A stretch of 33,072 nucleotides of DNA, from positions 1 to 33,072 of IMG/VR virus record IMGVR_UViG_3300010354_000319; one strand, 5' to 3'. The position numbers and the translations under genes were made by a program. Of the stretch, positions 14,441 to 33,035 are shown one piece after another. The stretch comes from a virus. The notes below the pieces were generated by a model. It saw only the letters and a list, made by a program, of their open reading frames with translations. It did no database searches and was not told the DNA's origin. Within the stretch, counting starts at the first letter, position 1, and each line of letters opens with the position of its first letter.

Positions 14441-15190
14441 TTAGGACTCCATTTGAATATAAGTAATAGTTACAGTAATTGACTGTGTAGATCCACTTTT
14501 ATTTACAACTTTTAAATAAACATTATTCGATGGGGTAGTATCATCATTCCAACCAATAGTTCCTGGTGTAATTTTTTGAGTTGAAGACCCAGTTGTAATG
14601 ACCTCAGCAATTACACCTGACCCTGGAGTGGGATCTACATTTTCACTCCTACTGGAATCGGTAGTTCTGCTCGTCGAATCGGTATAAACAGTTACCCAAG
14701 CGGCCGCTGAAGTTTGAATTTTTAATAATGCATAAGTTTTTGATGCAACAATAGTTATATTGTCGGAACCGTTATTTGCAATCGAAGCAGTAGAAGCAGT
14801 TGCAGTAGTTCGTTCTGGGATAAAACTTACAGGTATATTACTAAGATCGTTATAATCTCCACTTGTGGCAACTGTAGAAAGTGTTGGTTTATTTAAAATT
14901 GATGAAACTCCACTTTCAGATTGCCAATCAGATTGAACTTGAGCAGCAGGAATCGTTGGTCTTCCTGATAAATCATAGTAATCTAATTGCGAACTTACAA
15001 AATTAGTTCCATTACTTCTTAATACATTTCCAGATGTGACTGATGAAATATTTACTTGGAGATTTGTTCCATCTCCAAGATAATTATATATCTCATCCAA
15101 ATTGGAATTAATCTTTTGGGCACCAGATCTAATACTATCTCCAGTGCCATCATTAGCTTGAGAACCTACACTTATAAGTTGTTTTGCCAT
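14441..15190 (-). CDS. Fibre-like structural protein with NDGTGDS N-terminus
   Basis: This 249-aa protein begins MAKQLISVGSQANDGTGDSI and continues with RSGAQKINSNLDEIYNYLGD. This N-terminal module recurs in marine T4-like phages at the head of many tail-fibre and baseplate-associated proteins, where it probably anchors or trimerises the chain. A low-complexity middle contains DLSGRPTIPAAQ and LNKPTLST, short phrases common in fibre shafts. The last ~120 residues form a beta-rich domain: TTATASTASI, then KTYALLKIQTSAAAWVTVYT, and a final SITVTITYIQMES. This type of C-terminal domain is found in marine phage structural proteins. The start has an AGGAAA ribosome-binding site about 9 bases upstream. 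The gene ends 1 bp before the protease ATG, so the two are probably translationally coupled. The exact location in the virion cannot be told. Confidence 0.75.
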   Translation of the reverse strand: MAKQLISVGSQANDGTGDSIRSGAQKINSNLDEIYNYLGDGTNLQVNISSVTSGNVLRSNGTNFVSSQLDYYDLSGRPTIPAAQVQSDWQSESGVSSILNKPTLSTVATSGDYNDLSNIPVSFIPERTTATASTASIANNGSDNITIVASKTYALLKIQTSAAAWVTVYTDSTSRTTDSSRSENVDPTPGSGVIAEVITTGSSTQKITPGTIGWNDDTTPSNNVYLKVVNKSGSTQSITVTITYIQMES

Positions 15191-15215: not shown

Positions 15216-18200
15216 TTATGCCTGGTCAAAAGTAATTACGACGTTATCGAATGTTGCATCATCATCGTCAAATTTAAATCCAAATCCAGGGTCAATTCCA
15301 GGATTATAAGTATCAACTAAAATCGATGGGTAATTATAATTTGATCCTCTATTTACAACGTCAATTCTAGAAATTCCAACTAAAGCTTTTGCTTGAGCAT
15401 CGAAACCAGTTGCCGAATCGAAAGCAACTGTAGGTCTTGATGTATATCCGTTACCACCAGAAGTTAGTTGTAACTTAGATACTCTTCCTGTAATTATGCT
15501 CGCTAAAGCCTCTGCATTTCTTCCTAAAACTGATCCAAGATAATCAAAAGTAATTAATGAGTTTGATGATTCAATAACGGCAACGGTTCTAGACTGATCT
15601 TCAGATTGGATCTCCAATTGATCACCTGCTTCGATTGGCGGAATCACCGTCGCTGCAATAACATCAGCATCAGAACCAATATAGGAGAATGCTACAAAAG
15701 TAGATCCTGCTCTTGGAACTTCGGCAAATATAATTCTAGAACCAACCAATTGGAAGGAAACTCCAGGTTCTTGAATAACTCCATTTAACGAAACAATAAT
15801 ATTATTTTCTGGTTTTATAGTTGTTGATTGAACTCCAGCGGTAAGAGTTAGTGAATAAAATACTTCATTTAGTTTCAAGTTAAAGCTATTTCTTAGTGAG
15901 TCGAATTCAAATCCAATATCATCTAATTGCCTTAACTTACCTACATATACAGCATTAAAAGATCCACCAGAGTCAGGAGCTTCACTAAATTGAATAGTGT
16001 CGCTATATGCGGTATATGATGTTCCTGGAGGTTGTAATATTCCATTAACAAATACTAACATATGACCATCTGAATCAGGGAAATATTGATCTCCGTTATT
16101 TGTTGTTAATTTGAAGGTAGTCTGAGTTCCATTAAATCCTAAGAAATATCTGGAGATTGATCCTTCAATTTTAACAACATTAGATATAATTGATTTATAT
16201 CCATAAGATCCTACTACTTGTGCGTTTAAATTAAATGTTCCAGTTACTTCAGATAGATAATAACGATATCCACTTCCTTGAGATGTTATTTTTTCAATTC
16301 TTCCATATGCGGCACTAGGAGTTGTTAAAACAGAGCTTACTTCTGCATATCCAGATGGGTATTGATCACCAGGTACATAGTACGCAATTAAATCACCAAT
16401 TTGGAATATATCATCATTCACAATATTTCCAATGTAAAGATATGCTGTAGATCCTCCAGGTAATATTTCATAATTAATTACTGTTGCTTCTCTTCCGAGA
16501 GGTAAGTTGTCAAATACATTTTGAACTTTTTCTCCCACTGGGAAAGTTGTTAGATTTTCGTCTAAAAGTGAAAGTGTTAGTCTATAAGTATTTGTTGTTT
16601 GAATTACGTCTCCAAGTTGTGCAGATAATCCTTCAAGATTTATTACATCAATATAATATGAACTTAATGATGAGTATACTCTTCTTGTTGGTAGAAACTC
16701 CCCGCTAATTGCCTCAGTTTCTAAAATTAATTTCGAACCAGTATTAGAAATCACAGGTGCATAATTATAATCATAGTTAGTCACTCCAATTTCAGCATGA
16801 GAATATAATCCTTTTGCATATTGATTTGATGCAAATCCACCAATTACATTAGTCAGTTGAACTCTATTTACAATACTTGTTATTGTTGCAGTGAAGTTTA
16901 CTGGATTTAAAAGAACATCATTTTCATTGAAAGGACCTTGATTTACTAATACATCAATATAACTTACAAATTCACCATTTTCGATTGAAATAATATTACA
17001 AGTTACCGATGGTTGACCTTGAACTGTTAGTTCCTGATTTACCTGGAACACTTCAGTAGCAGTTGTGTAGTCTATCTCAAATCTTAGATAGATATCCCTT
17101 ACAGTTCCCCTATTGTAGATTATGGATTCAATTTCACCTGCTTCTCCTGAAGTTTCACCATAAATATAATCCCCAACTGCAATTTCATTTGAAATCGGCG
17201 TGGTTCTTATTCTTACTGGATATGATTTTGATGGTACTGTAATAGAATTACTTGATACTATTGAGTTATTATCAATATAATCTGGATTGTTCAGAACACC
17301 CAAAAGAATATCCATTTCGTCATCAATAAAGTTTTGGATTTCTGTTAAAGAAGCACCAGAAATACTAACAGAAGCATCAGTATACGCATATTGTCCTGAG
17401 GCAGTTGCAGGAGAAGTTAAAGTTTCTGAAACTGCCTGCTTAAGATAATCTTTTACCCTATTGTAAGTATAGATACTCTGAATTAATTCTCCTTCGAGAG
17501 ATAGTACGGTTCCTGTAGTTGCATCTATATATGAAGTTGCAGCCTCAATAATAGCAGAATTTCCATCTGTTAACAAATCATAAACAATAGCATTCACAAC
17601 ATATCCAATATCTCTTAAACACTTTGCATTTCCTCCTGGAACACTAAATCCTGCATAATTATTAAGAGTTCCTTGAAGTGATTCGTACTTAATATACTCT
17701 TTATTGAATAGAATTAATTTTGCCGCATCTCTGTATAATTTATTGGAATCACTTTCAGATTGACGAGTAACATGATTCATATTACCGTTAGTAACTGCAG
17801 TAGTTAATATAGAAGTTAAAGTTGTAATTGAAGATGCTACATTGGCACAATCGCCAGCAGTATAAACTCCCTCTTGTCCAGATTGATCTCCAATTACAGT
17901 ATTATCAAAATATTGAGATAGTGTAGAATATCCACCAATAGTAATTACTTCATTTCTCATGGCTTCAATTGCCATGTCTCTTGCTTGATTAAATGCGTAA
18001 TTGGATTGAGTTTGCTCTCCAGACAAATATGAATTTATTGTATATACTTGAGCATAATCAAAGGTGCGAGCATTGCCCCCATTTCTTAAATCGTATACCA
18101 AAGCAGTTAAAATATCAACAATATCATCAATACAATTTTGATTGCCATTTGGAACTGAGAATCCAGGATAATTTGCCAGCATTCTTCCAACTGCAACTTC

Positions 18201-21200
18201 CGCAATTAAAGTCTTATTAGACTCGATTAAATTCGAAGCATCATAATATCTTCCATAATAGGAATTTCTCTCTGGAATCAAAATACCAACAGCAATATTG
18301 AACAGTGTATCTACGGAAGCTTTAATTCTTTCGCAGTTTCCACCATAAGTTCCATCATCAGGAATAATGGTTAGATCTTTATACTTAGATGCTGTAGCAC
18401 CATAAGTCGTGTTATACTCGGTTGCTGTTGTACCATTAATAATCCAATTATCAATGGCATATTGGCAAAGTTGATTAACTTTTTCAATTGCAACTACAGT
18501 AGGTAGTAACTCATCTTTAACATATTGAATATTGCCATTTCCAATATAATATTCCATAGCAGAAATAATATTTGCATTTCCACCAGTTAGAAGATCTGTA
18601 ATAATGGAAGGAATTATATAATCAGTTATATCTCGTTCACATACAGTTGGAGATCCATTAGGATAAGTAAATCCAGAATAACTTGTACCATTTAAAATAT
18701 ATGTGAAATATGATTCGATATAACCAGTTGCTTCTTGAGCAATATAATCACGGTTAAACCATAATTGATCTGCAGCATCTCTATAAATTTGAGCTGCTGG
18801 AGCAATAATATCATTAATCTGCTCCCATAATGAATTTATATTAGATCTAACATTAGCACAGAAAGGACTGGATGGATCAATCTGTATTCCAATCGGCGCA
18901 ATGGGAAGAACATCAGTATACAATGGAGTCAAACTTAATTCACCAGAAATAGCTTGCTGACATAGCTCACTCATCTGAGTATGTGCATAGAGACTTTGTA
19001 ATGCTTGTAATTGTATGTAATTTAAACCGCCTTCAGCATTAATATAGAATCTAGCAGCAGTTATGGATTCATAACTGCCTCCATTTTCGATATCTGTAAT
19101 TACAGCATTTAATAAGAGAGATAGATCTAATTTACAACGATTTGTACCATCAGAAACTGATCCTGGTATATCTCCAGGAATTACTAAATCTGGGTAGCGA
19201 GATTTCATTCTTCCAGCTGCTTCATCAATAATGTACGTAGAATTTAAACGGAGTAAATTTGCAGCATCTCTGTATCTGTGTTGAGTATCTTCATCGATTT
19301 GACCTGTGATGATTGTATCAAGTCCAACATCAATTTGATTCCCTATAAATGGAGTTTCGTTGTAATTTGATGATATTGCAGAAACTCCACTACCATTAGT
19401 AATCTCCTCACCTAGATTAAATGAACCTGTTGTTGAACCTACAAAAATAATTTTTAATGCATAATTAATTCCTATTATTTCGGCATAAGCACCAGAAATG
19501 GAACCAGTAACTGTTTCTCCAATGTTGAAATTGCCACCAGATAAGTTATAGTATGAGAGTTTTTTGACTTTAAAAGTTTCTCCTTCTGCAAAAGATCCAG
19601 TTTCATTGATATATGAAATTTCAATATTTTGTATGAGATCATCTTCTATTACTAAATCTGATCCTACATTATAGTCAAAATCCAACACAATATTAGTAAT
19701 ATCTTCATATGGAACAAATTTAGTTTCTGCTTTCAAATTAAAGTCATTAATATCAACTACTTCCGCTAGTGACTTACTAATATCATCCACAATAACATTA
19801 GGATTAACTGGATTAACTATCCTATTAAACAATAATCCAAAGAAAGAACTTTGATCGCTAATAGTTATAGATGATATAAATTCTCCCGTTGCTGGATCTT
19901 GATATGGTGATATGGAGACTATTTTTGCAACCACTCCAGATTTAGCACCAAGAATATAATCGTTTAGTGCTATTTCAAGAAGACCTGATGGACTTTCATA
20001 AGTTCCTGAAGTTTTACTAATAATAATATTATTTGTTACCGTACTGGTTTCAGTATCTAGATTTATTTCTTCTACTTTTGCAGTTTTTTGTTTAGTATTA
20101 CTTATCTTTTCCCCAAATTCAAAGACGTTTGCATTAACAAGTTCTTCTTGCGAATCTAAAGTACAATTTAATCCAGTTACAGAAGAAATGATAGTTTCTC
20201 CATCCTGGAAACCAGCTCCAGTAATATCAAATACTTTAAGTGTGTTGGATGTAGATGATACAATAGTAGCAACAGTATTAGAAGTCAAACCACGAATACT
20301 ATTTCCTAACTCTGGTAAAATGCCAGAAACATTACTTATATTTAACTGATAGGTACTTAAGAATAATAATGTTGCCTTAGCATAACTAACTTTAGTTGGA
20401 GCTGCTGGTGGTTCATTAAATACAATATTACCTTGCTGAACTTCGAATGTCTGGCCAGGAGCTTGGGAGATACCGTTTATAACAATCATAAATTGACTGG
20501 TATTTGCAATAACAGTATTTCCATCAATGGTTAATGGGAATGAAGTTCTTTCTCCATCAAATAAATTAGAAATATCATCTAACCTTTGTACAACTGAGGT
20601 TAAAATTTCTTCGGAAGAAGTAAGTCTTGTTGATCTAAATAAAACCTGTGTATTATCAAACTCTTGATATATTGGCTCTACCAAAGCAAAATTTTCTATA
20701 TTTGCAACTACAGAGCTTTCTATTAAATTTACACTCTTAGTTAATTCAAAATCAGTCCTATCATTTAATCCTTTACCTCCACCAGCAATATCAATTTCAC
20801 CAAATACTTTAAATCCAGCTGGGTGAGTGCTTTCAATCAAAGTATCTCTCCATTCTCCAATAGAAACTGGAGATTTGATATTATATGAGAAAGTTTGATA
20901 TAGATAGGAATCTTGTATTCTTTGAACAATTTCACTTGGTTTACCAATGTCATCAATAAACTTACCAACTGTTTTTGTAATTGAGTCTACTTCAAGAACT
21001 CCCTTAGCAATATTAATATCCTGAATAGTTCCACTTGCTCTTGATACTACTCCAGTTACTTGTAACCCTACAGTAAATTCTCCATCAACATTGGTTACTT
21101 TTAATAATCTTGGACCTATTTGCCATCCATCGTTAACTGAAACATATCCAGTAGCACTTGCATTTTCTAAAGAATCTCCTTGATAGATCAATTCACCAGA

Positions 21201-24200
21201 CAAGAATCTTCCAGTCTCAACAACAGATACAGCTGAACCACCAAAGGAATCCGTTAAAATAATTTGTCTTCCTGTACCAGCATTAGCAAATGAAATGTAA
21301 TTTCCACTAAGAGCATCTTGAGGGGTTAATGCAATTCTTAGTTGGTTATCTTCTAAACCAGAGTCTCCTCCAGAAATAGCGTAATAAAGTTGTGTTTGTG
21401 AAATGAAACCAAATGAAGTTAATGGGAATGAAGCACCCTCACCCAAATCCTGAACTTGGAATTGTACTGTAGCACCATTTTGAATGCCATGTGGGAATGC
21501 AAATTGGAATAGTCCAAGATCTAAGTTGACAACATAAGTGAAACTGGATTTTAATTGTATATCTGGTGAAGAAGAATATCCGTATCCTGGGTTTTTAATT
21601 ATAATATCACTAATACGACCATTCTTAATTAATGCTTGGGCACTTGCACCAGATCCACCTCCACCAGTAATTACTACTTCTGGTGGAGTTGTATAACCAG
21701 TTCCAGGATCTACAATTTTAATACTACTTAATATGCTAGTATTGATTAATTGTAAATTGACTGGGAACGTAATTTCTGGTCTTAATGTATAGTCATGAGT
21801 ATAATTAAAACCGAAATTATTATTTTTTAATTTTTTAATCTTACCTACATTTTCTCCTTGAGTAAATATTGATGCTCCAGTTCCTTTTGGTGGAATAACT
21901 ACAGTTAATTCAGCACCAGATCCAAGTAGTTCTGGACCTAAAATTCCATCAATCGCATCAACGTCAATATACGCAGTTGTGTATCCTTTTCCAGGATCCG
22001 TCACTGTAACTTCTATAATTTGTCCTGCGGGATCAGATGTTCCATCAACTAAAATTGATACCTTACCTCCAGTTCCATCACCAAGAATAGGAACACCAAA
22101 GTATTCACCAGCTTCATATTCGGTGCCAGGATTTACAATATCAACTCTTTCAATTTTTCTAGATGATTGAATATCTCTAATAATGGGTAATTTTTTATAA
22201 AATCCTCCACCATTAACCAACCTAATTCTAGAAATTGATCCAACAGCTTTCGGAGAAGTAGTTGAATATGAAGAATATGCAGTTGTAGCTGCTTTTTCTG
22301 GTTCAAAAGAAATAACAAATTTCATTACATTTGGTCCTTCTGTGATTGATCCTCCACTCAAATCAGTAATTTCAAAATTTCCAATATAAGGACTTGGTAG
22401 TATATCAATATAAGAAAGAGAACTTACTGGTCCGTCTTCAGTGAGATTTGATGGATCAGCATAATAACTAATATTTGCAACATCATCAGTGACTTTAAAT
22501 GAAATAAATGGAGAATTGCCAGGTTCATCAAATCCAGGAGTTCCTTTTCTTATGATATTTTTGAATGTGTATTCAATTTTATATAAATTATCTCTATAGA
22601 AGGATAAATAATGCCCCTGCATTGATGAATCCGAAGTATCGAATGTGTATTGTTGTCCGTATATAAATTTAAATATTGGAGTTTTTACAAAGATACTTAC
22701 TATTTCAGTAGATAATTCTGAAGTTGGATTTGATCTTAATTTAACAATAAATTCTTTCTTTGAAATTATAGTATTAATGTCAAATGTTCCGTCCAATGAT
22801 TCATACTGGGGAGATGATTCACAATAAACAATACTATCCGCCGTTAAATAATGGGATACATCGGATCTAACAAAAATTAAATCAGTAGTGTCAATTGAAT
22901 CAACTTGAATAATTCTTTTTAAATTAGTAATTACACTAATTTGTGATACTCCAGTTAATCCTGTTATAGTAGTCTCTTGTTTATCCGAAGTAAATGAAAT
23001 TTGACTTGAAGTTATGGTAACAACAGATCCAATAGTATATGGAGATCCCGCTACAGTATTATCTATTCTTATTAAATAATCTTCCTCAGAATAATCTTTA
23101 AACTCTGCAGAAAGTTCTACGGGTATCGCAAGATCAAAAGATCCTAAGACAGTATTATCGACATTTGCAAAAACATAGGCATCAATTTCATTGGTATATA
23201 AATCGGAACTTTCCAGACGACCAGTATTTAAAGAAAATGATCCAGTTCTATCTGATACAGTAATCGTATTATTAATTAAATCTTTTTCAACAATTTTGCC
23301 AGTTGCTATAGTAGATCCTATATTATTATATTGAATTAGAGTTGTTCCAATATTATAATTAAAATCTTGATTCAGTGTCAATTTAACAACATTATCAATC
23401 TTCGAGGCATTAAAATATTTGAAATAAAACTTATCTAAAACTTTTGCCGAAACTTTAACTTTTTTACCACCTGTGGATGGAACAGTTGCAGTCCTAGAGG
23501 ACCATATATCTCTATAATTTTCAAATTGTTGAGATGAAGATGTTGTAGAAGATGCTGTAGTATAACTAAAATCTAAAATTTGGAATCCTTCTCCAGCCAA
23601 AAGATAATTAGAAGAAATTAAATCTGTATTGAAATCGGAACTCATTACAGAGTATAAATTTCTTGTTAATACTAAATTATTGTTTGATAACGTTATGTTA
23701 CCTAACCTCACAGAGTCGGAATTCTTATCACATTTGATCATAAATGTTCTTCCAGGATACCAATCATGATCAACATTACCAGATGCAGTTCCATAATCCA
23801 CGGTTCCATATGGATCATTAGGAACTGTAGATACAATATAATTGCTATATCTAATATCATCAATATTCATCGGCCAAGAAGAATATGATGTTGTGGAACC
23901 AAACTCAATATCAGTTGGGTTCATATTTAAATTCTCACTTATGGTAGCAATTTCAGTACCATTCCAATTCAATGCATACGTAGTAACACCATTCACATAT
24001 TCTTTAGTTAATGAAAGATGTACCCAATCGGAAACTAAATCCGTAGCATATGTATTTGCTGTAGTTTGTTGAGTTACAGTGCCACTATCATTGCTTAATA
24101 GAAGTGTACCAGGAGAGGTTGTATCCGAGTGTACGACAACTTTTACTCCATTAACTCCATCTGTAGCACGAATTAAAATTGGTTCTTTTGCGGAAGCTAG

Positions 24201-27200
24201 ACTATCCCATTTAATCCACTCCTCAATAGTCCAATTATTATTATCTGCGGTTAGAGAATCTACCGAAAGTTTTGCATTCTGTTGAGGTGAATAGTATGAT
24301 CCATCAAACACTCCATCACCATAATTAATGTATACATCTCCAGTATCAACTAAATTGTTAGATCTTCCAGTTTTATCATCAAAGGCGTTACCTTCTGCAT
24401 TAAATAAGAATTGTGTTCTATTTTGCTCTACTGTACCAACAATAATTTGATCTCCAGAAGAATCCGAAACACAAGAAATTGCAGTATAGCCTCTTGTTAA
24501 ATCTTGATCTTCTATAGTATATGAATTAATAATCGTACCATCATATTTGTATTTTAATACACCAAAGGATTTTGAGAGATTGGAATCTACAATTGAATAT
24601 GCAACTGTTATATGTCCAAAAATATCTATCGAACAATTTGTTGCTGACGTTGAAATATTAGATCCTATTCTTGTAATTAAATTGTATACAATCTCACCAG
24701 AATTGTTTAGTCTTAATAATTGAATTCTTTCTCGATTACCTGTAGATACTACTTCTGGTGTTGAAGTCAAATAAAGTTGATCATATTCATCAATAATAAA
24801 TGATATGTTTGTAAATTTATATCCACTTAAAGAATATGTCTTAGACCATGATACTTTAATTGAATTCGATAGTACGTATAATTTTGTGACTAATATATTG
24901 TTAGTATTACTAGAACCAACAACAAAAATATTATTATTGCTATCTACTTTAATCTCATAAATTTTTTCGCTTAATGATGATGATGTTATTTTTCTCTTAG
25001 AAAGAACATCACCAGATGAATTCAGTAAAACAATAAATCCATCATCAGAACTAACTGTATTTGTATTAGTATAACCAGCAATAAGAATATTATCACCTAT
25101 ACATGCTACGCTAGTAACATAATCCGATCTTGTAATACCACTTATACCAGCAAGGTCAATTTTCCAAGAGAGCGTTGCATCTGATCCTGTTGAATTCTCA
25201 ACAAACCTACAAACAAAAACGTCTGGATTAAATGCTGCGGTTAGAGTTTGATTTGGATATGTTCTTCCAACAACATACAAATTGTTCAAATTCTTAGCAG
25301 CTGCTACAAATTGGAATTTTGAAGTATTTGATGTCGGTAATGGCGAATTAAATACTTTACCATAAATTAAAACACCATCACTATTATATTTTGTGAAATA
25401 TCCTTTATCGGATAATTGAGAATCTCCCGTTTCATTGCTAATATCAACTTTAGAACCCATTACATAGAAAGATTTATCTGTAGTTACTAAAGTATTATAT
25501 GGAACTAATTTGTAATTATCTTCATAAATTTCATCATAAAAATAATCTGCTTTCTTTTTGGATTCTGGATGTGAAATTCGAATAATTGGATCTTCTAAAT
25601 AACCAGTTCCAGAATTGACAATTTCTATATTTGATATAATACCCGTCGAACTAATTGGCACATTTAACTGTGCATGTTGTCCAGAATTAGATTCTATATC
25701 TATGAATGGTTCTATATCTGGATCATAACCAACACCTTCTTGTTCAATGATAATTTTTTCAATACCAGTAACAGAGCGAACACTAATAGTTTTGCTACTT
25801 GGTTCCATTAATGGAGTTGTAGTAACATTAACAGTATCACCAACTAATAAATCATGTGGTTCTGTAGTTTGTAATACTCCTTTAAATTCATCTAAATTGG
25901 AATCATATTCATAATTATATGATTGAATGGTTTTTCCTTCTATTTCTGCAATTCTAGCAGAGGCACCATATCCACCAGTGTTAGTATCATCAAATACTAA
26001 TCTATCATTAACTTGATAATTTTGACCACTATTTTCAATTAAAAATCCTGTAATTTTTGCATCTTCAAATTTAGTTGTTGTTTCTACTTCAATATCAACT
26101 TTGGATGCAATATCAACTTTGGGGAAATAATCAAAAACTTCAAGTTTTTGCTCTTCAAACATCACATCAGGATCATCAATTTCATCCTGACTAATTATAC
26201 CATCTTTATTTTCATCTTCAATTTCAAATAGAAGAAGATCACCATTTTCTAGTGTGAGTGCATTGGTAGTTTGATTTGGAATTCTCTCTACATCAATATC
26301 AACATTCTCAAATGGAGCTCTATAACGAACAACACCAGAAGGAATATATGACTGAGTTGCAAACTGATTTAAGTTCCAAAGATCAGGAGAAGAATAATAT
26401 TTTGGTCCTATAATATAAGGATATTCAGAAACTCCAGCAGGATCTAAAGTTACAAAATAAGCATAGATACCATCGGGAAACTCTGGTGTTTTTGTAAATC
26501 TACCATTGTATTCATCTAGGTAAGTTGCAAGACTATTAAAATTGTACTCATAATCATCAGTGAAAGTACCTGCTGGATACTCACTTAATAGTGGACCTTC
26601 AATTCTAGAAGGAGATGGATTGGTATTTTCATCGTATATTAAATTAGTTTTTAACGAGTAACTACTTCTAATTGGTACAATGCTGCTCGATAATGATGTT
26701 GGATCCTGAAAACCATATGGACCATAGATAGGATTACCGTCAAAAGCCCATCCTAAAATTGGAGAGTGGGTTACAGAATCTCTTTCCTGCAATTCACCAG
26801 ATATTAAGTCTAAGTTATCTCCTAAAACATAACGTAATTGTTTTGGATTAGATATATGAGCGTATTCTCCTCCATACTGAGAATTATATCCAACAAAAAT
26901 AGATCCATTTGCATAATCAAAATTAGTTGTTTCATTGAGATTAAATGTCCACCTATAAATTTCAGATTCGAATACTGCATCACTGCCAATGGATTCTAAT
27001 CTAATTTGTGTTGTTCCCTGATTGTAACCAATTCCTCTATTTAAAATTTGAATAGATACAACTTTTCCTAGAGATGTTCCTTCAGAAGATATTGTAGCCT
27101 TTGCAACAGCACCAAATCCATCTCCAGTAATAATAACTTTTGGAGCTGTTGTATAACCAACTCCAGCAGCAATAATAGCAATAGAAAGAATTCTTCCATT

Positions 27201-30200
27201 ACTTACATATGCTTGAGCAGCTGCACCTTGACCACTACTCAATTTAATTTGAGGAGCACTAGTATAACTTGTACCTGGATTAGTTAAATTTACGGATTTG
27301 ATTGGACCTCTAACTACAGATCTAGCAGTTGCACCAGATCCACCACCACCAGTAATCGTAACCGTTGGTTCTTTAGTGTATCCTGTACCTACAGAATTCA
27401 TTAAAACTCTACTTACTACACCGTTCGTAACTACAGCAGTAGCAGATGCTCCTATACCATCAGATCCGTAGATGGAAACTAGAGGAGCACTAGTATACCC
27501 ACTTCCACCATCGATGACTTCAATTTCGACAACAGATCCATTAACAATAACCTCTGCAGATGCATCAAATCCATTTCCTCCCTCAAAAGACAAAATTGGT
27601 GGAGTTGCTGCATCGTAATCTTGTCCAGAGTTAATAACATTAATATTAGTTACAGGGCCAAACTCATAATAATTTTGAGATTTGTAATTCCATATCGAAA
27701 CACCATTTACAAAACTTCCAACTGGTCCTGGAATAGTACTAGTTTTCAATGAAATTGTATTTGCAATTCTTGGAAATTTATATAATTTTCTTTGATTTCC
27801 TGGTAATAACGCAGTTCCAATAAACGGACCAATTTTATAATTTGGTATACCAGATGCGGCAACATATACATCAGTAGAATTTATAAAAGTATTTTGAATA
27901 TTTGATGGGAATCTACTAATCGAAGTGTTTATTGATTGTGTATCACTTTTACCAGTATTTAAATCAATAGAAATAAGTATATTACCTTGAGGATTTAATA
28001 CTGCGGGTTGAGGTAATGTGTACTTAAATACGGTTTCACTTTCTCTAGATGTGACTAAAAATGATCCATTATATACAATCGGATTTGCGCCATAAATCGT
28101 AACTTGATCCCCAACAAGAAGACCATGAGGATCAAAACAAGTAACTGTCGCTGTTTGGTTATTTACGCCGCCATAAATTATAGTATCTACCTTGAGTAAT
28201 TTTTTAACATTATATAACCAACTAGTAACTATTTTTGAATTATCATCTGCACCTAATTTTGCAATTGCGAGTTTGTCACCAGAAAGATAATAACTACCAT
28301 CATCAATTAAATTTGTTTGATTTGCATCAATAATACCCAAAATTGATAATACAACTTCTTTGTCTGTTCCTCTATTAGCATAGATATAAAAATTAGATTC
28401 AACAGTACTTCCAGCATCCCAATTTTGTGCTGAAGAACCAGAGATACCTCTTGTACATTCAATAAATTGTGTCAGTGATTTTTCTTTGTATCTAATTATT
28501 TCATTTCCAATTACAACTTCTCCATTTCTTTCTGGCCATCCAATAGTAGAATCAACATCAATAACTAAAACTTCTGGAGTTATACTTTGTACTAATTTTG
28601 TTGTATAAGGAATTACAAACTTTCCTTGAATTGTTTCTTCAGATAAAATAAGTTCATATACATCATATTTTGATGTTTGAATCGCAGTATAATTTTCAAT
28701 TAAAGCTGAAGCATAAAGTACATTAGTATCTACAGCATCTTCAACTTGCTCTAGTAGTGAATCTTTTAAGTATAAAGGATTTCCTGATACAATTTTACAT
28801 CTTAAAATTGTATCAATTGACCAAGATGCTGCTGATGGTTTAATAATTTGATCTTTTGGATACGTTACATCTACAGATGCTCCATAAAGAAGTTTAAACA
28901 GATATTTAACTGAATAAACAGTTCCTTTTGATGCATAAAAATCTTTAATAGTGCTTATAATATTTGATACATTTAATTGGTTTGTATCTAATTCGGGAAA
29001 GTTTGGTAGATATCCAGAGGTAATTTTATCGATAATTTTTTTCAAAAAGATGCTATCAACACTCGTAACTGTAGATCCTAAGTTATGGTAAGATGCTATC
29101 GATTCCGATTCAGATTTAAATACTAAATTATCAGTTGTGTCATATTTTAATAATCCACTAACTCCTCTAGCACAATTTACAAATTGCGATTTAACATATT
29201 CACTTCCAGTGTTAACTAGTTCAAAACCAGTTACCTCATCAATTCCTATTTCACTTGAAGCTCGTGCAGATGGCGAAGAAGAAATGAAGACTTTTGGTGG
29301 ATATTGAGATGAATATCCAGTTCCAAAATCAACGATATTAATATCAATGATTTCACCATTAAATATAGTTGCAACTGCTTTGGCTCCAGTGCCACCAATA
29401 GCATTTCCTAAATTATCTTTTCTATCGTCAACTATATAAACACTTGGAACATCTTCATACCCAAAACCACCACTTAGCAATTCTATATTAATAACTCTAC
29501 CAAAATCATCAACGGAAACATCTAATATCTGAGCTCCTGTTGGTTGAATCACCTTTACTCTTGGTAATGTTGTCGAATCATATCCAGTACCAGGAACAGT
29601 GATAATAACATCGATAACATGTCCGTCCGAGTCTAGTACGGCAGAAGCAGCTGCTTGAATACCATTTTCTTGCTGTGGTGGATCTATATAAATTTCTGGT
29701 GCTGTGGTATATCCAAAACCTCCATCAACTACATCTATGCTTAAAATTGCACCATTCGATACAATTGGATTATTTACTTCTGCTCCTGTTGGATTTACAA
29801 ATTGAATTCTAGGAACAGTTTCATAACCAGATCCACTATTAGTTAATGTAATTGATGAAATATTTCCACTAGCATTTACAGTTGCTTTTGCTTGAGCTGT
29901 TGTGCTTCCTGATTGTGCTGGGGATGATATTACCACTATTGGTGGATTTACTTCCGAATATCCTTTTCCGCCTTCCAATAGTGTTACTGTTTTTAGTCCC
30001 CCAACTAAAGATTTTGCAGTAGCATATTGACCAGAAGATCCAGTAATACTTACTTTGGGAGAATTTGCTAGTGTATATCCACTGCCACCAAATTTAACTT
30101 GTATTTTTTCTACTTCGCCAAGAGTATTGACTACAGAATAAGCAACAGCACCAGACCCATAGTTAACTATTGGTGCTGATATATAAGAGATATAAATTGA

Positions 30201-31043
30201 TTGCTGAGGTACTTCTTTAAAAATTACGTAATCATTAAAAACACTGTAATCCTGTAGAGGTACTAGTAATCTTCCATCAACAATAGCTACTGTTAAAACT
30301 GTTGATGCTGGAATATATTGAGAATTATTTTTTCTTAATGGATATATAACTTCATTATTAGTTCCTGGAGTAATATTATCTAAGATATCAATATTGTTTG
30401 AATCGTATCCTTTTAAATATCTTATACTAATATCAGTAATAGTATCCGATAAATTAATTGCATCAAATTGTCTTGGCGCAGTTGTAAATATAAGTTTATC
30501 ACCTAAAATAGTATAATCTACTTCTGGTGTTAAATACTCATTATAGATTTTGACTAATACATGTTGAGATGAAGGTGGGAAAACTGGAACATTATTTAGT
30601 TTTAGATCAAATTGCTTTTTAATACCATCAAATTCTTGATATGGATTTGTTAATTCTAAAATCTTTTTTTGAAATTCTGGATATGATAATCCAGCAGATA
30701 AAATAACAGATGGAGATTTTTTTAATGATTCGTAGTAAATTATCTCATCGTCAATCAGTATAGTTCCGTTATTTTCTACAAATCCATCTGTAGTTTCTAC
30801 TTCGATATTAGAAGTATCATCAGAAATACTAGCTATTAAAGATGTATTTCCATCTAATTTTGTTAGATCATATTTAGATAGATTAAAATAATCAGAAAGA
30901 TTATTTAAAACTCCTATAGGACCAGCAACCTTTTCCTGAGACTTATAATAATGTGATAAAAATCTCTCAAATAGAGGACTGTTATCTTTAATAAAATCTG
31001 GAAGTTGATTTAGAACGGAAAGTGATACTGATGCTTGTTGCAT
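15216..31043 (-). CDS. Giant multidomain virion protein (5275 aa), N-terminal part gp7-like by position
   Basis: One uninterrupted frame encodes 5275 residues, about half the window. It follows gp6, where T4 has the 1032-aa wedge initiator gp7. Residues ~690-733 carry FYASKGTVYSVKYLFKLLYG and YPKDQIIKPS, a motif I associate with phage baseplate proteins, so the first ~900 residues may be the wedge part. Visible regions in order: GGxGY beta repeats (~308-590 and ~1140-1315); a YHYH-like domain (~1425-1550); a canonical EF-hand loop DENKDGIISQDE (1610-1621); propeller-like repeats (~1845-2210); a LamG-like region (~2212-2405); more GGxGY repeats (~2935-3170); TG-SGA beta modules (~3280-3880); four Cys-marked helical repeats (3924 to ~4580); and NGxxQxPGxxF modules near the C-terminus. 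No signal peptide or membrane segment is seen. The start has a purine-rich GAGAGAG upstream. A virion role is strongly supported; wedge identity is inference. Confidence 0.85.
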   Translation of the reverse strand: MQQASVSLSVLNQLPDFIKDNSPLFERFLSHYYKSQEKVAGPIGVLNNLSDYFNLSKYDLTKLDGNTSLIASISDDTSNIEVETTDGFVENNGTILIDDEIIYYESLKKSPSVILSAGLSYPEFQKKILELTNPYQEFDGIKKQFDLKLNNVPVFPPSSQHVLVKIYNEYLTPEVDYTILGDKLIFTTAPRQFDAINLSDTITDISIRYLKGYDSNNIDILDNITPGTNNEVIYPLRKNNSQYIPASTVLTVAIVDGRLLVPLQDYSVFNDYVIFKEVPQQSIYISYISAPIVNYGSGAVAYSVVNTLGEVEKIQVKFGGSGYTLANSPKVSITGSSGQYATAKSLVGGLKTVTLLEGGKGYSEVNPPIVVISSPAQSGSTTAQAKATVNASGNISSITLTNSGSGYETVPRIQFVNPTGAEVNNPIVSNGAILSIDVVDGGFGYTTAPEIYIDPPQQENGIQAAASAVLDSDGHVIDVIITVPGTGYDSTTLPRVKVIQPTGAQILDVSVDDFGRVINIELLSGGFGYEDVPSVYIVDDRKDNLGNAIGGTGAKAVATIFNGEIIDINIVDFGTGYSSQYPPKVFISSSPSARASSEIGIDEVTGFELVNTGSEYVKSQFVNCARGVSGLLKYDTTDNLVFKSESESIASYHNLGSTVTSVDSIFLKKIIDKITSGYLPNFPELDTNQLNVSNIISTIKDFYASKGTVYSVKYLFKLLYGASVDVTYPKDQIIKPSAASWSIDTILRCKIVSGNPLYLKDSLLEQVEDAVDTNVLYASALIENYTAIQTSKYDVYELILSEETIQGKFVIPYTTKLVQSITPEVLVIDVDSTIGWPERNGEVVIGNEIIRYKEKSLTQFIECTRGISGSSAQNWDAGSTVESNFYIYANRGTDKEVVLSILGIIDANQTNLIDDGSYYLSGDKLAIAKLGADDNSKIVTSWLYNVKKLLKVDTIIYGGVNNQTATVTCFDPHGLLVGDQVTIYGANPIVYNGSFLVTSRESETVFKYTLPQPAVLNPQGNILISIDLNTGKSDTQSINTSISRFPSNIQNTFINSTDVYVAASGIPNYKIGPFIGTALLPGNQRKLYKFPRIANTISLKTSTIPGPVGSFVNGVSIWNYKSQNYYEFGPVTNINVINSGQDYDAATPPILSFEGGNGFDASAEVIVNGSVVEIEVIDGGSGYTSAPLVSIYGSDGIGASATAVVTNGVVSRVLMNSVGTGYTKEPTVTITGGGGSGATARSVVRGPIKSVNLTNPGTSYTSAPQIKLSSGQGAAAQAYVSNGRILSIAIIAAGVGYTTAPKVIITGDGFGAVAKATISSEGTSLGKVVSIQILNRGIGYNQGTTQIRLESIGSDAVFESEIYRWTFNLNETTNFDYANGSIFVGYNSQYGGEYAHISNPKQLRYVLGDNLDLISGELQERDSVTHSPILGWAFDGNPIYGPYGFQDPTSLSSSIVPIRSSYSLKTNLIYDENTNPSPSRIEGPLLSEYPAGTFTDDYEYNFNSLATYLDEYNGRFTKTPEFPDGIYAYFVTLDPAGVSEYPYIIGPKYYSSPDLWNLNQFATQSYIPSGVVRYRAPFENVDIDVERIPNQTTNALTLENGDLLLFEIEDENKDGIISQDEIDDPDVMFEEQKLEVFDYFPKVDIASKVDIEVETTTKFEDAKITGFLIENSGQNYQVNDRLVFDDTNTGGYGASARIAEIEGKTIQSYNYEYDSNLDEFKGVLQTTEPHDLLVGDTVNVTTTPLMEPSSKTISVRSVTGIEKIIIEQEGVGYDPDIEPFIDIESNSGQHAQLNVPISSTGIISNIEIVNSGTGYLEDPIIRISHPESKKKADYFYDEIYEDNYKLVPYNTLVTTDKSFYVMGSKVDISNETGDSQLSDKGYFTKYNSDGVLIYGKVFNSPLPTSNTSKFQFVAAAKNLNNLYVVGRTYPNQTLTAAFNPDVFVCRFVENSTGSDATLSWKIDLAGISGITRSDYVTSVACIGDNILIAGYTNTNTVSSDDGFIVLLNSSGDVLSKRKITSSSLSEKIYEIKVDSNNNIFVVGSSNTNNILVTKLYVLSNSIKVSWSKTYSLSGYKFTNISFIIDEYDQLYLTSTPEVVSTGNRERIQLLRLNNSGEIVYNLITRIGSNISTSATNCSIDIFGHITVAYSIVDSNLSKSFGVLKYKYDGTIINSYTIEDQDLTRGYTAISCVSDSSGDQIIVGTVEQNRTQFLFNAEGNAFDDKTGRSNNLVDTGDVYINYGDGVFDGSYYSPQQNAKLSVDSLTADNNNWTIEEWIKWDSLASAKEPILIRATDGVNGVKVVVHSDTTSPGTLLLSNDSGTVTQQTTANTYATDLVSDWVHLSLTKEYVNGVTTYALNWNGTEIATISENLNMNPTDIEFGSTTSYSSWPMNIDDIRYSNYIVSTVPNDPYGTVDYGTASGNVDHDWYPGRTFMIKCDKNSDSVRLGNITLSNNNLVLTRNLYSVMSSDFNTDLISSNYLLAGEGFQILDFSYTTASSTTSSSQQFENYRDIWSSRTATVPSTGGKKVKVSAKVLDKFYFKYFNASKIDNVVKLTLNQDFNYNIGTTLIQYNNIGSTIATGKIVEKDLINNTITVSDRTGSFSLNTGRLESSDLYTNEIDAYVFANVDNTVLGSFDLAIPVELSAEFKDYSEEDYLIRIDNTVAGSPYTIGSVVTITSSQISFTSDKQETTITGLTGVSQISVITNLKRIIQVDSIDTTDLIFVRSDVSHYLTADSIVYCESSPQYESLDGTFDINTIISKKEFIVKLRSNPTSELSTEIVSIFVKTPIFKFIYGQQYTFDTSDSSMQGHYLSFYRDNLYKIEYTFKNIIRKGTPGFDEPGNSPFISFKVTDDVANISYYADPSNLTEDGPVSSLSYIDILPSPYIGNFEITDLSGGSITEGPNVMKFVISFEPEKAATTAYSSYSTTSPKAVGSISRIRLVNGGGFYKKLPIIRDIQSSRKIERVDIVNPGTEYEAGEYFGVPILGDGTGGKVSILVDGTSDPAGQIIEVTVTDPGKGYTTAYIDVDAIDGILGPELLGSGAELTVVIPPKGTGASIFTQGENVGKIKKLKNNNFGFNYTHDYTLRPEITFPVNLQLINTSILSSIKIVDPGTGYTTPPEVVITGGGGSGASAQALIKNGRISDIIIKNPGYGYSSSPDIQLKSSFTYVVNLDLGLFQFAFPHGIQNGATVQFQVQDLGEGASFPLTSFGFISQTQLYYAISGGDSGLEDNQLRIALTPQDALSGNYISFANAGTGRQIILTDSFGGSAVSVVETGRFLSGELIYQGDSLENASATGYVSVNDGWQIGPRLLKVTNVDGEFTVGLQVTGVVSRASGTIQDINIAKGVLEVDSITKTVGKFIDDIGKPSEIVQRIQDSYLYQTFSYNIKSPVSIGEWRDTLIESTHPAGFKVFGEIDIAGGGKGLNDRTDFELTKSVNLIESSVVANIENFALVEPIYQEFDNTQVLFRSTRLTSSEEILTSVVQRLDDISNLFDGERTSFPLTIDGNTVIANTSQFMIVINGISQAPGQTFEVQQGNIVFNEPPAAPTKVSYAKATLLFLSTYQLNISNVSGILPELGNSIRGLTSNTVATIVSSTSNTLKVFDITGAGFQDGETIISSVTGLNCTLDSQEELVNANVFEFGEKISNTKQKTAKVEEINLDTETSTVTNNIIISKTSGTYESPSGLLEIALNDYILGAKSGVVAKIVSISPYQDPATGEFISSITISDQSSFFGLLFNRIVNPVNPNVIVDDISKSLAEVVDINDFNLKAETKFVPYEDITNIVLDFDYNVGSDLVIEDDLIQNIEISYINETGSFAEGETFKVKKLSYYNLSGGNFNIGETVTGSISGAYAEIIGINYALKIIFVGSTTGSFNLGEEITNGSGVSAISSNYNETPFIGNQIDVGLDTIITGQIDEDTQHRYRDAANLLRLNSTYIIDEAAGRMKSRYPDLVIPGDIPGSVSDGTNRCKLDLSLLLNAVITDIENGGSYESITAARFYINAEGGLNYIQLQALQSLYAHTQMSELCQQAISGELSLTPLYTDVLPIAPIGIQIDPSSPFCANVRSNINSLWEQINDIIAPAAQIYRDAADQLWFNRDYIAQEATGYIESYFTYILNGTSYSGFTYPNGSPTVCERDITDYIIPSIITDLLTGGNANIISAMEYYIGNGNIQYVKDELLPTVVAIEKVNQLCQYAIDNWIINGTTATEYNTTYGATASKYKDLTIIPDDGTYGGNCERIKASVDTLFNIAVGILIPERNSYYGRYYDASNLIESNKTLIAEVAVGRMLANYPGFSVPNGNQNCIDDIVDILTALVYDLRNGGNARTFDYAQVYTINSYLSGEQTQSNYAFNQARDMAIEAMRNEVITIGGYSTLSQYFDNTVIGDQSGQEGVYTAGDCANVASSITTLTSILTTAVTNGNMNHVTRQSESDSNKLYRDAAKLILFNKEYIKYESLQGTLNNYAGFSVPGGNAKCLRDIGYVVNAIVYDLLTDGNSAIIEAATSYIDATTGTVLSLEGELIQSIYTYNRVKDYLKQAVSETLTSPATASGQYAYTDASVSISGASLTEIQNFIDDEMDILLGVLNNPDYIDNNSIVSSNSITVPSKSYPVRIRTTPISNEIAVGDYIYGETSGEAGEIESIIYNRGTVRDIYLRFEIDYTTATEVFQVNQELTVQGQPSVTCNIISIENGEFVSYIDVLVNQGPFNENDVLLNPVNFTATITSIVNRVQLTNVIGGFASNQYAKGLYSHAEIGVTNYDYNYAPVISNTGSKLILETEAISGEFLPTRRVYSSLSSYYIDVINLEGLSAQLGDVIQTTNTYRLTLSLLDENLTTFPVGEKVQNVFDNLPLGREATVINYEILPGGSTAYLYIGNIVNDDIFQIGDLIAYYVPGDQYPSGYAEVSSVLTTPSAAYGRIEKITSQGSGYRYYLSEVTGTFNLNAQVVGSYGYKSIISNVVKIEGSISRYFLGFNGTQTTFKLTTNNGDQYFPDSDGHMLVFVNGILQPPGTSYTAYSDTIQFSEAPDSGGSFNAVYVGKLRQLDDIGFEFDSLRNSFNLKLNEVFYSLTLTAGVQSTTIKPENNIIVSLNGVIQEPGVSFQLVGSRIIFAEVPRAGSTFVAFSYIGSDADVIAATVIPPIEAGDQLEIQSEDQSRTVAVIESSNSLITFDYLGSVLGRNAEALASIITGRVSKLQLTSGGNGYTSRPTVAFDSATGFDAQAKALVGISRIDVVNRGSNYNYPSILVDTYNPGIDPGFGFKFDDDDATFDNVVITFDQA
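17290..19280 (-). repeat. Fourfold Cys-marked helical repeat within the giant protein
   Basis: Four diverged copies of a 163-179 residue unit begin at residues 3924, 4087, 4266 and 4437. Each opens with a helix of the type YRDAAxLxxxNxxYIxxEAxG (YRDAANLL, YRDAADQLW, YYDASNLI, YRDAAKLI). Next comes a short linker ending in a cysteine, then a second helix CxxDIxxxxxAxxxDLxxGGN, and a third segment leading to Y-x-x-x-x-L. Between copies a further cysteine precedes a helix: CANVRSNINSL, CERIKASVDTL, CANVASSITTL. The composition is alpha-helical, in contrast to the beta-rich rest of the protein. I recall similar segments in other marine myovirus structural proteins but know no assigned function. 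Confidence 0.75.
23830..25510 (-). other. Propeller-like repeats followed by a LamG-like region, within the giant protein
   Basis: Residues ~1845-2210 contain repeated blade-like phrases of the SBBP or beta-propeller style, such as DSNNNIFVVGSSN, DEYDQLYLTS, DIFGHITVAYS and DSSGDQIIVG, each preceded by a strand with a W-x-K or L-x-N turn. The next ~190 residues (~2212-2405) look like a LamG or concanavalin-type jellyroll: an FNAEGNAFDDKTGRSNN opening, NWTIEEWIKWDS in the middle, then DWVHLSLT and a closing NIDDIRYSNY. Such folds commonly bind glycans. The assignment is from sequence pattern only. Confidence 0.6.
26181..26216 (-). other. EF-hand-like calcium-binding loop within the giant protein
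   Basis: Residues 1610-1621 read DENKDGIISQDE. All canonical EF-hand loop positions are satisfied: D1, N3, D5, G6, I8, S9 and E12. The flanks are acidic, with LLFEIE before and IDDPD after. Only one loop is visible, so this is better called a calcium-binding loop of the type also found in dockerins and surface proteins than a paired EF-hand domain. Confidence 0.7.
26390..26770 (-). other. YHYH-like domain within the giant protein
   Basis: Residues 1426-1444 read HSPILGWAFDGNPIYGPYG and are followed, about 75 residues later, by LDEYNGRFTKTPEFPDGIYAYF and a closing YPYIIGP. The G-x-x-x-DG-x-PIYGPYG signature, the LDExNGRxxxTPE-PDG-Y-YF block and the final YPY-IGP are the hallmarks of the YHYH family, known mainly from secreted or surface-associated proteins of unknown biochemical function. 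The eponymous Y-H-Y-H segment is changed: the second block reads YAYF where many relatives have YHYF. No activity is claimed. Confidence 0.75.
27100..27625 (-). repeat. Second GGxGY beta-repeat array in the giant protein
   Basis: Four to five tandem units are encoded, at residues ~1140-1315. They include GGSGYTSAPLVSI, VGTGYTKEPTVTI, PGTSYTSAPQIKL and AGVGYTTAPKVII, each followed by a G-x-GAxA turn and a short V-x-NGxVxxI strand. Units here are more regular than in the first array, which suggests more recent duplication or homogenisation. The array ends about 110 residues before the YHYH-like domain. Confidence 0.8.
29240..30125 (-). repeat. First GGxGY beta-repeat array in the giant protein
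   Basis: This stretch encodes about six tandem units of roughly 40-50 residues. Each has an [L/V]xxGGxGYxxxP turn, a short strand, a G-A-xA segment and a VxxxGxIxxIxxxxxG strand; examples are SGSGYETVPRI, GGFGYTTAPEI and PGTGYDSTTLP. The pattern predicts a stacked beta structure. The same unit recurs at about 27100-27625 and 21530-22240, once near the gene's 3' end, and in the neighbouring 706-aa and gp8 genes. Confidence 0.8.
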
Positions 31044-31079: not shown

Positions 31080-33035
31080 TTATGAGAAACAGGATCCGCC
31101 TCCAGTTGAAGCAACTGGACTTGCGAATTCGAATGTAATTGGTGAAGGTGAGAAGGTTGTAGGATCGCCTGCAGATGCCCCTGGTCCTGTTTCAGGTATG
31201 GAAGATCCTATGGTTATAGCTGGGACAGGAATGGACACTATAGATCCTGCAGGAACATTAATAGATCCAGTATTTTTTGGTTTAATTGATACAATCAAAA
31301 CTGATGGACCTGTGCCAGCTGGATCCAAAATAGTTGTTAATGGTCCAACAATAACTTTTCCTGTATCGCAATTATATGATCCAACATTAGTATTTGTAAT
31401 AATTTTTTTATTATTTTGAACATAATAACTAATTAATTTCCCTGCACCATCATCCTGTAAGTATTGGGGTTCAGTTATTCCAGGAGTATAAAATCTTGAA
31501 GATCTTATAGTTTCACCAGCAGCAGAATCACATGCACAATCTAACTGTATATTAAAATCAAATGTCCATGATTTTGGGGTAGTAAGATTTTCATATGGAA
31601 TTTGTTTATATGGTGTTAATCCAAATTGAATGTCATTAATATTTGGATCGGAATCGAGAATAATTTTTTGTAATTGTGATAATGATACAGTTTTTCCAAA
31701 ATTTCCAAGATCTTCTCTATTTCCATATTCTTGTATAGCAGCAAGAATTTTCTTTCTAATATCATCTGAAGTATTTTGATTCAAATCACTATTCGATAAA
31801 ACACTCCTAAATGTATTTGCTGAAACGAATAAAGATAAATTGATAAAAAATTCTTCTGGATCTACAATAACAGTTTCTATGGATGCCATAGAATACGGTT
31901 TTAATTTTGATGTTAAATCTTTTTTTGTCAAATTATTTAATTTATTACCAGTTTCAGTTTTAATTGCAATAACTACCTTTCCATAACTAGGAGGATTTAG
32001 TAATTCGCCTCCAAAAGCATTGACATATTTAGCATTTGGATATATACTTTTTACAATAGATTCATAGTCGTTTGATGTAACTGCTCTATTTTGTGCAGAA
32101 TAGTATCTTGGTGCATTAAACTTTATTGAATTTAAAGTTTCTGCAGCAGAACCAAGTTGGGATTTATCTAATACGACTAAAGTTATATTATCTACGGGTT
32201 GATTATTAGAGTCAATAATTTGACCAATATATCCCATCACATTTATATTATTTGCAACACTTCCAGAAGTTTTAACATATTCAAAGTAAACAACTTCATT
32301 ATCAATTAATTTTCTCCCTACAATATCATCACCAAAAGTTAGTTCATACCTTCTGTCATCAACTTCATTTAAAAAATATATTTTATCTGTAGACTCTACG
32401 TAAGTTACATTATTTATCTGATTGTATCTGTCATAGGTGGTTGACTGCAAATCTGGTTTTACAAAAACTTTAACAGTTTCAGTATCTACATTATCATTTG
32501 GTATGATAAAATGTTGCTGAACACTATTATTTACAGTATATTGATATGAAAGTAAATTTCCCTCATAAATTTTTAATGAATCAAAACTAGCAACTCCAGT
32601 TGATCTGTTTACAGATGCAGTTTTATCATCTAATACAACAAAAGTATATGATACACCATTAATACTCCCAACTGCAACATCTCCCTTTTTAAGTGTTACT
32701 GTTGATGGATATGTACCATCAACACCTATAGATGTCTGTGCTGATAATGATATACATGCTTTAGAAGCAGAAATCGATCTAGGTGTATAATTTAAGGATC
32801 TTGCAAGAGAAACGACATTATCTCTGATAGATGCAGAATCCAAAAATAATTCATTGATCGCCATGTTAGCATTAAAAGCACTGTAATAAGTGTTATATGC
32901 TAATACGTCAATCAAATACGAGAGAGTTGATCCAGTAAAATCATAATCGGTAAACTCATTTCGAGTTCTTAAATATGATTTAATAGACTCCCTAATATCA
33001 TCAAAATCGATATTTACTAAATTGGTAGGTTTCAT
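31080..33035 (-). CDS. gp6: Baseplate wedge protein gp6 (Baseplate J-like)
   Basis: This 651-aa protein is the T4 gp6-type baseplate wedge subunit; T4 gp6 is 660 aa. In T4, gp6 dimers form the continuous ring that holds the wedges together and couples baseplate change to sheath contraction. The first 95 residues are characteristic of the family: an acidic N-terminus with DFDDIRESIKSYL, then FTDYDFTGSTLSYLIDVLAY, then NMAINELFLDSASIRDNVVS and an SLNYTPRS segment. The middle carries YELTFGDDIVGR, the Baseplate_J-type core, and a later RAVTSNDYESIVKSIYPN segment, also typical of J-like wedge proteins. The C-terminal 60 residues are Gly/Pro/Ser-rich and end in GGGSCFS, which looks like an added tail. 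The start at 33035 has AAAGG upstream and overlaps the preceding stop. The 36-bp gap to the giant gene suggests one transcript. Confidence 0.93.
   Translation of the reverse strand: MKPTNLVNIDFDDIRESIKSYLRTRNEFTDYDFTGSTLSYLIDVLAYNTYYSAFNANMAINELFLDSASIRDNVVSLARSLNYTPRSISASKACISLSAQTSIGVDGTYPSTVTLKKGDVAVGSINGVSYTFVVLDDKTASVNRSTGVASFDSLKIYEGNLLSYQYTVNNSVQQHFIIPNDNVDTETVKVFVKPDLQSTTYDRYNQINNVTYVESTDKIYFLNEVDDRRYELTFGDDIVGRKLIDNEVVYFEYVKTSGSVANNINVMGYIGQIIDSNNQPVDNITLVVLDKSQLGSAAETLNSIKFNAPRYYSAQNRAVTSNDYESIVKSIYPNAKYVNAFGGELLNPPSYGKVVIAIKTETGNKLNNLTKKDLTSKLKPYSMASIETVIVDPEEFFINLSLFVSANTFRSVLSNSDLNQNTSDDIRKKILAAIQEYGNREDLGNFGKTVSLSQLQKIILDSDPNINDIQFGLTPYKQIPYENLTTPKSWTFDFNIQLDCACDSAAGETIRSSRFYTPGITEPQYLQDDGAGKLISYYVQNNKKIITNTNVGSYNCDTGKVIVGPLTTILDPAGTGPSVLIVSIKPKNTGSINVPAGSIVSIPVPAITIGSSIPETGPGASAGDPTTFSPSPITFEFASPVASTGGGSCFS

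Follow-up and report, generated by a model that had tools for sequence, protein, structure and literature searches.

The giant protein encoded at 15216..31043 on the minus strand of the window, a 33,072-base IMG/VR fragment, is identified by comparison as wedge protein gp7 from a T4-like cyanophage of the Kyanoviridae, its core divided in two, and it carries four tandem phycobiliprotein-fold (globin-like) domains at aa 3923-4586. Since these domains keep the pigment-attachment cysteine, the virus particle itself may carry a light-absorbing pigment. The giant gp7 family is known; unreported in the literature found is a phycobiliprotein-fold module with an intact bilin site, present also in other cyanophage tail proteins. 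Searches of the open-licence literature returned no paper describing virion proteins with phycobiliprotein-fold domains.

All real genes in the window lie on the minus strand, in the order gp6, giant gene, gp9/10-N-like gene, S8 subtilase, phrog_708 wedge protein, gp8, a 2415-aa protein and an Mtd_N tail protein. The giant ORF begins with ATG 36 nt past the stop codon of the baseplate wedge gene gp6 (31080..33035, minus strand; PF21379, phrog_219), encodes 5275 aa and matches phrog_701 over all three thirds. Its 5276 codons are free of stops, compared to a longest run of 198 and a mean of 120 in 100 dinucleotide shuffles of the window, in agreement with the 15.8-kb open frame directly after gp6 described in the first-pass annotation. 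Orthologues in the same slot of S-CREM1 (5422 aa) and S-H38 (5512 aa) are 54-56% identical to it over almost the full length, so an assembly fusion is ruled out as the origin of the frame. Downstream on the same strand are the gp9/gp10-N-like connector (14441..15190; PF07880) and the S8 subtilase (12775..14439; PF00082), a conserved neighbor that holds this position in S-CREM1 and S-H38 too and might process baseplate proteins. The gp8 wedge protein (9054..10586, minus strand; PF09215, phrog_438) is followed by the 2415-aa protein (1790-9037; DUF4815, phrog_358), whose same-place counterpart in P-SSM4 and phiN3 is annotated as VrlC, and by an open-ended tail protein at 1-1278 that combines an Mtd_N domain with a weak carbohydrate-binding module. 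A Gly-rich beta repeat, GGxGYxxxPxVxIxGGGGxGA, is common to the giant and to the products of 10631-12751 and 9054-10586, and occurs in several baseplate/neck proteins of these phages.

Identification as gp7 was obtained with a 35-row profile of giant residues 1-960, for which T4 gp7 was the top PDB match. The match is short and covers one motif (T4 733-760; E 0.004-0.012 against the PDB and 1.5e-5 against the T4 genome), pairing the T4 site DFYATKGIEDSYKFLFKLLYNEDVEI with FYASKGT of the giant (aa 702-708; window 28920-28940, minus strand). Against the T4 genome the wedge-core profile matched a single frame, of gene-7 length, and it matched proteins of ~1000 aa in the Sinorhizobium phiN3 and Pelagibacter HTVC008M genomes. 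The profile was needed, as phmmer with the giant N-terminus alone found no match in the PDB, and Pfam gave only a sub-threshold wedge match on the giant. An AlphaFold model of the N-terminal 960 residues reached pLDDT 78, with low values in the motif region itself. Foldseek with this model returned no significant match, T4 gp7 being merely top-ranked. Alignment of giant 735-917 with T4 gp7 about 761-857 gave VIA Z 8.5-8.7 (overall range 8.0-8.7 over 77-93 residues) with the motif in register, at low motif-region pLDDT. Other phage tail and capsid proteins share an EF-Tu-like beta barrel predicted at aa 811-885 (28389-28613).

The core itself is split. Its first piece (aa 1-108; 30720..31043, minus strand) aligns with the gp7 start of S-CAM9, P-SSM2, P-HM1, S-PM2 and S-H34, and the second piece (aa 617 to about 955-960; 28164..29195, minus strand) contains FYASKGT and the T4 gp7 profile match, the sole match in the T4 genome. 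Between them lies a beta-rich array (aa 109-616; 29196..30719, minus strand). This array is considered an insert because the same five cyanophage gp7 proteins lack it, joining giant residue 108 straight to about 613-623. Placement in the gene 7 slot and the link to gp7, proposed in the first-pass annotation, were thus borne out by the T4 gp7 top match, the single T4 frame of gene-7 length and the in-register alignment of the predicted fold. Its tentative assignment of residues 1-900 to the wedge protein holds for aa 1-108 and 617-955 and fails for the inserted aa 109-616. Relative to T4 gp7 (1032 aa; PDB 5IV5, 5HX2), the giant has the same position after gp6, the FYxxKG motif and a predicted post-motif fold that aligns, but it is five times longer, its core is split by the beta array, and it bears phycobiliprotein-fold and other appendages. 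By length the giant is mostly fibre-like repeats, and its PHROG label is 'virion structural protein', as would be expected of a tail fibre with the wedge protein encoded elsewhere; however, no gp7 was found elsewhere in the S-CREM1 and S-H38 genomes, where the giant ORF is the sole full wedge-core match in profile searches, and gene order and structure agree with gp7, making a fibre-only identity extremely unlikely.

Beyond the core, the gp7 protein extends C-terminally by about 4300 residues, consistent with the more than 4000 appended residues first proposed. Appended beta repeats and other modules occupy aa 960-3922 (19278..28166, minus strand), including a YHYH domain (PF14240, E 6.8e-28; aa 1321-1535, 26439..27083, minus strand). 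The C-terminal beta-rich region (aa 4585-5275; 15219..17291, minus strand) ends in a stretch resembling the inserted N-terminal array, with giant aa 4970-5243 matching orthologue residues 141-379. The beta repeats and the helical modules described by the first-pass annotation are present, as probably is its lectin-like module; the helical modules are the phycobiliprotein-fold domains, which it had not recognized. Other phages share this architecture, which the first-pass annotation had proposed as distinct. Proteins in the gp7 slot range from 1006-1032 aa (phiN3, T4) through 1.9 kaa (S-H34, S-CREM2) up to 7312 aa (P-SSM4, annotated gp7), and the giant N-terminus was matched in 480 phage records; a giant gp7 is therefore ordinary for Kyanoviridae (1.9-7.3 kaa), a known family already annotated as gp7. 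The window adds one more member, about 55% identical, which shares the slot, N-terminal core and appended modules of the other phrog_701 proteins (P-SSM4, S-CREM1, S-H38) and differs only in its length and in the number of modules. In S-CREM2, mass spectrometry detected the gp7-slot protein in virions (PMC10665884). We infer that the gp7 core would anchor the protein in the baseplate wedge, with the extension projecting as a built-in appendage.

The four tandem domains lie on the minus strand at 18798..19277 (r1, aa 3923-4082; Cys84-like C3970, Cys153-like C4062), 18273..18785 (r2, aa 4087-4257; motif CERD, C4135, second cysteine C4237), 17787..18248 (r3, aa 4266-4419; C4304, second cysteine C4399) and 17286..17735 (r4, aa 4437-4586; KCLRDIGY at the single cysteine C4475). 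Pfam Phycobilisome (PF00502) scored 41.4 bits, compared to a cut-off of 22.2, over aa ~4418-4541, a stretch overlapping r4. With single-sequence phmmer, one copy matched the phycocyanin subunit CpcA at E 6.5e-4 and another matched smURFP weakly. A 41-row profile of the domains (A1) matched 164 PDB chains, the best 60 of which are phycobiliproteins or the related 8u0f, and hhalign against cyanobacterial CpcB and CpcA gave E 1e-7 to 5e-8. The AF2 model of r4 (pLDDT 92, pTM 0.88) returned structure lists filled with phycobiliproteins in both Foldseek and VIA, with VIA Z 15-17 (best 17.1, 2.4 A over 147 residues). Identity to phycobiliprotein structures is only 11-17%, and the case accordingly rests on the sum of the tests. 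As Pfam, profile, hhalign and AlphaFold agree, the helical modules of the giant are assigned by comparison to the phycobiliprotein fold. Like CpcA, CpcB and CpeB (PF00502), the domains have the fold, the Cys84 and Asp87 positions and often a cysteine at the Cys153 place; unlike them, they stand in tandem inside a virion protein and have a variable Arg86. The N-terminal X-Y hairpin used by phycobiliproteins in alpha-beta pairing was not seen in the aligned part, the structure matches beginning at chain residue 25-33, past the hairpin.

Conservation within these domains is concentrated at the putative bilin site. Across 71 phage domains below 80% identity, the Cys84-like residue is conserved in 97%, the Asp87-like residue in 99% and the second cysteine in 76%, while Arg86 is only about half conserved. 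The Cys84-like and Asp87-like columns are the only invariant columns of profile A1 besides one Asn, and distant isolates gave comparable counts (60/66, 63/66 and, for the second cysteine, 50/58). The bilin cysteines of 42 CpcB and 45 CpcA sequences all fall in the Cys84-like column. The second cysteine lies in a GDC motif ahead of the last helix, like beta Cys153, and aligns to column 153 in the 9 rows where alignments extend there; its equivalence to Cys153 is suggestive only, and weak outside the motif. Two or three cysteines are common per domain, with a second one present in 76-86%, which would fit disulfides or metal binding that stabilize the fibre outside the cell. In contrast, r4-type domains have a single, equally conserved cysteine, at the Cys84-like position, so that this residue does not serve an intradomain disulfide, and the two positions are those of beta Cys82 and Cys153, which are far apart in the phycocyanin structure. 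A disulfide or metal role is thus considered quite improbable, and a bilin site is preferred.

Phycobiliprotein-fold domains were found in 360 phage records, all from cyanophages except one marine virus, and are absent from the T4, phiN3 and HTVC008M genomes. Among cyanophage genomes searched whole, the lyase gene cpeT (PF06206) was present in 24/25 with domains and 0/6 without (Fisher p 1e-5), and in ACG-2014f the domains were forecast from the presence of cpeT and then confirmed. A 154,990-base ACG-2014b record with cpeT and no domains was left out of this count, as it is about 17.7 kb shorter than its domain-bearing siblings and its gp7 frame is shortened to 3544 aa; the missing 17.7 kb is probably an assembly gap, and counting the record against the association gives p 5e-5. 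A portal-protein tree leaves five independent contrasts, four agreeing and none opposing (p 0.125), so that under tree control the association is consistent, not proof. A search of IMG/VR for complete genomes that would add independent contrasts returned mostly fragments. The window is a fragment, and any cpeT of its own would lie outside it. Most species examined in the S-PM2 clade have cpeT some 1 to 4 kb upstream of a domain-bearing tail gene, which in S-PM2 sits just before gp12. GenBank places 16 tRNAs within this 3779-aa S-PM2 tail gene (160000-180000), apparently through wrong coordinates in that entry. Other bilin genes did not follow the domains. The S-type lyase (PF09367; CpeS family) was rejected as a partner: S-H34, a genome lacking both domains and cpeT, was the only one in which it was found. 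Bilin reductase (PF05996) did not discriminate, being present in 6/16 genomes with domains and 1/7 without; P-SSM2 has the reductase and neither domains nor cpeT. Phage CpeT, a T-type bilin lyase related to CpcT (4o4o) and 5hi8, occurs in nearly all domain-bearing genomes as an enzyme separate from the giant protein.

From the conserved residues and the gene association, it is about an even call that at least some of the domains carry a covalent bilin loaded by CpeT. Loading would take place inside the infected cell, on the conserved Cys84-like and often also the Cys153-like cysteine, with bilin supplied by the host or by phage PebS/PcyA. T-type lyases are known for Cys153 and not Cys84 (PMC10452541), which counts against CpeT loading on the Cys84-like site. 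An alternative accepts the same gp7 and fold but takes the domains as apo-structural parts of a long fibre, either spacers or assembly modules, with cpeT serving host phycobiliproteins only. Consistent with this, the cysteine is lost in the readable domains of P-SSM4 and in part in P-SSM7 and P-RSM4, all three of which keep the fold and cpeT; B23 has domains with the cysteines kept and no cpeT; Arg86 is not kept; and we know of no pigmented virion on record. The spacer explanation does not account for the bilin-site Cys and Asp columns being conserved above all others in a family otherwise ~30% identical, or for cpeT tracking the domains across genomes, and is judged somewhat short of an even chance. 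The restriction of the domains to cyanophages, away from T4, phiN3 and HTVC008M, could also suggest mimicry of host phycobiliproteins, with the domains acting in or on the host (e.g. binding a host lyase or linker) rather than carrying pigment. However, the domains belong to virion baseplate and tail proteins, which are outside the cell at adsorption (cf. PMC10665884), and mimicry is highly unlikely.

Under the preferred pigment reading, a weaker step is that the chromophore might switch the state of the tail fibre or baseplate with light and so contribute to light-dependent adsorption. Adsorption of S-PM2 is said to require light (work ascribed to Jia, 2010), P-SSM2 reportedly adsorbs in the dark (ascribed to Liu, 2019), and phage CpeT is said to bind phycoerythrobilin and to have failed to load host phycoerythrin (ascribed to Gasper, 2017). 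P-HM2, which carries a bilin reductase gene along with the domains and cpeT, fails to adsorb in the dark (PMC7112961), and in one experiment in darkness it did enter some of the host cells (PMC5082946). The cases bearing on a link with light dependence number only four, and such dependence may have other causes. Taken whole, from gp7 core and projecting appendage to CpeT-loaded bilin domains and light-linked adsorption, the reading stands roughly in balance.

The role of phage cpeT is described in the literature as unresolved and the role of pcyA/pebS as a mystery (PMC3037559), and the failure of some cyanophages to adsorb in the dark has lacked an explanation (PMC7112961, PMC2984593). If pigment were found, the function of the phycobiliprotein-fold module would be new. 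A virion substrate encoded by the phage itself would, if true, answer the cpeT/pcyA/pebS question, and virion bilin domains would be a candidate sensor for the failure to adsorb in the dark. Both the pigment and the light-sensor ideas are testable with existing isolates. In its broadest and more doubtful form, the proposal is that cyanophage virions would be chromoproteins, that CpeT and PebS/PcyA would act in virion maturation and not in host metabolism, and that the bound pigment would make adsorption light-dependent.
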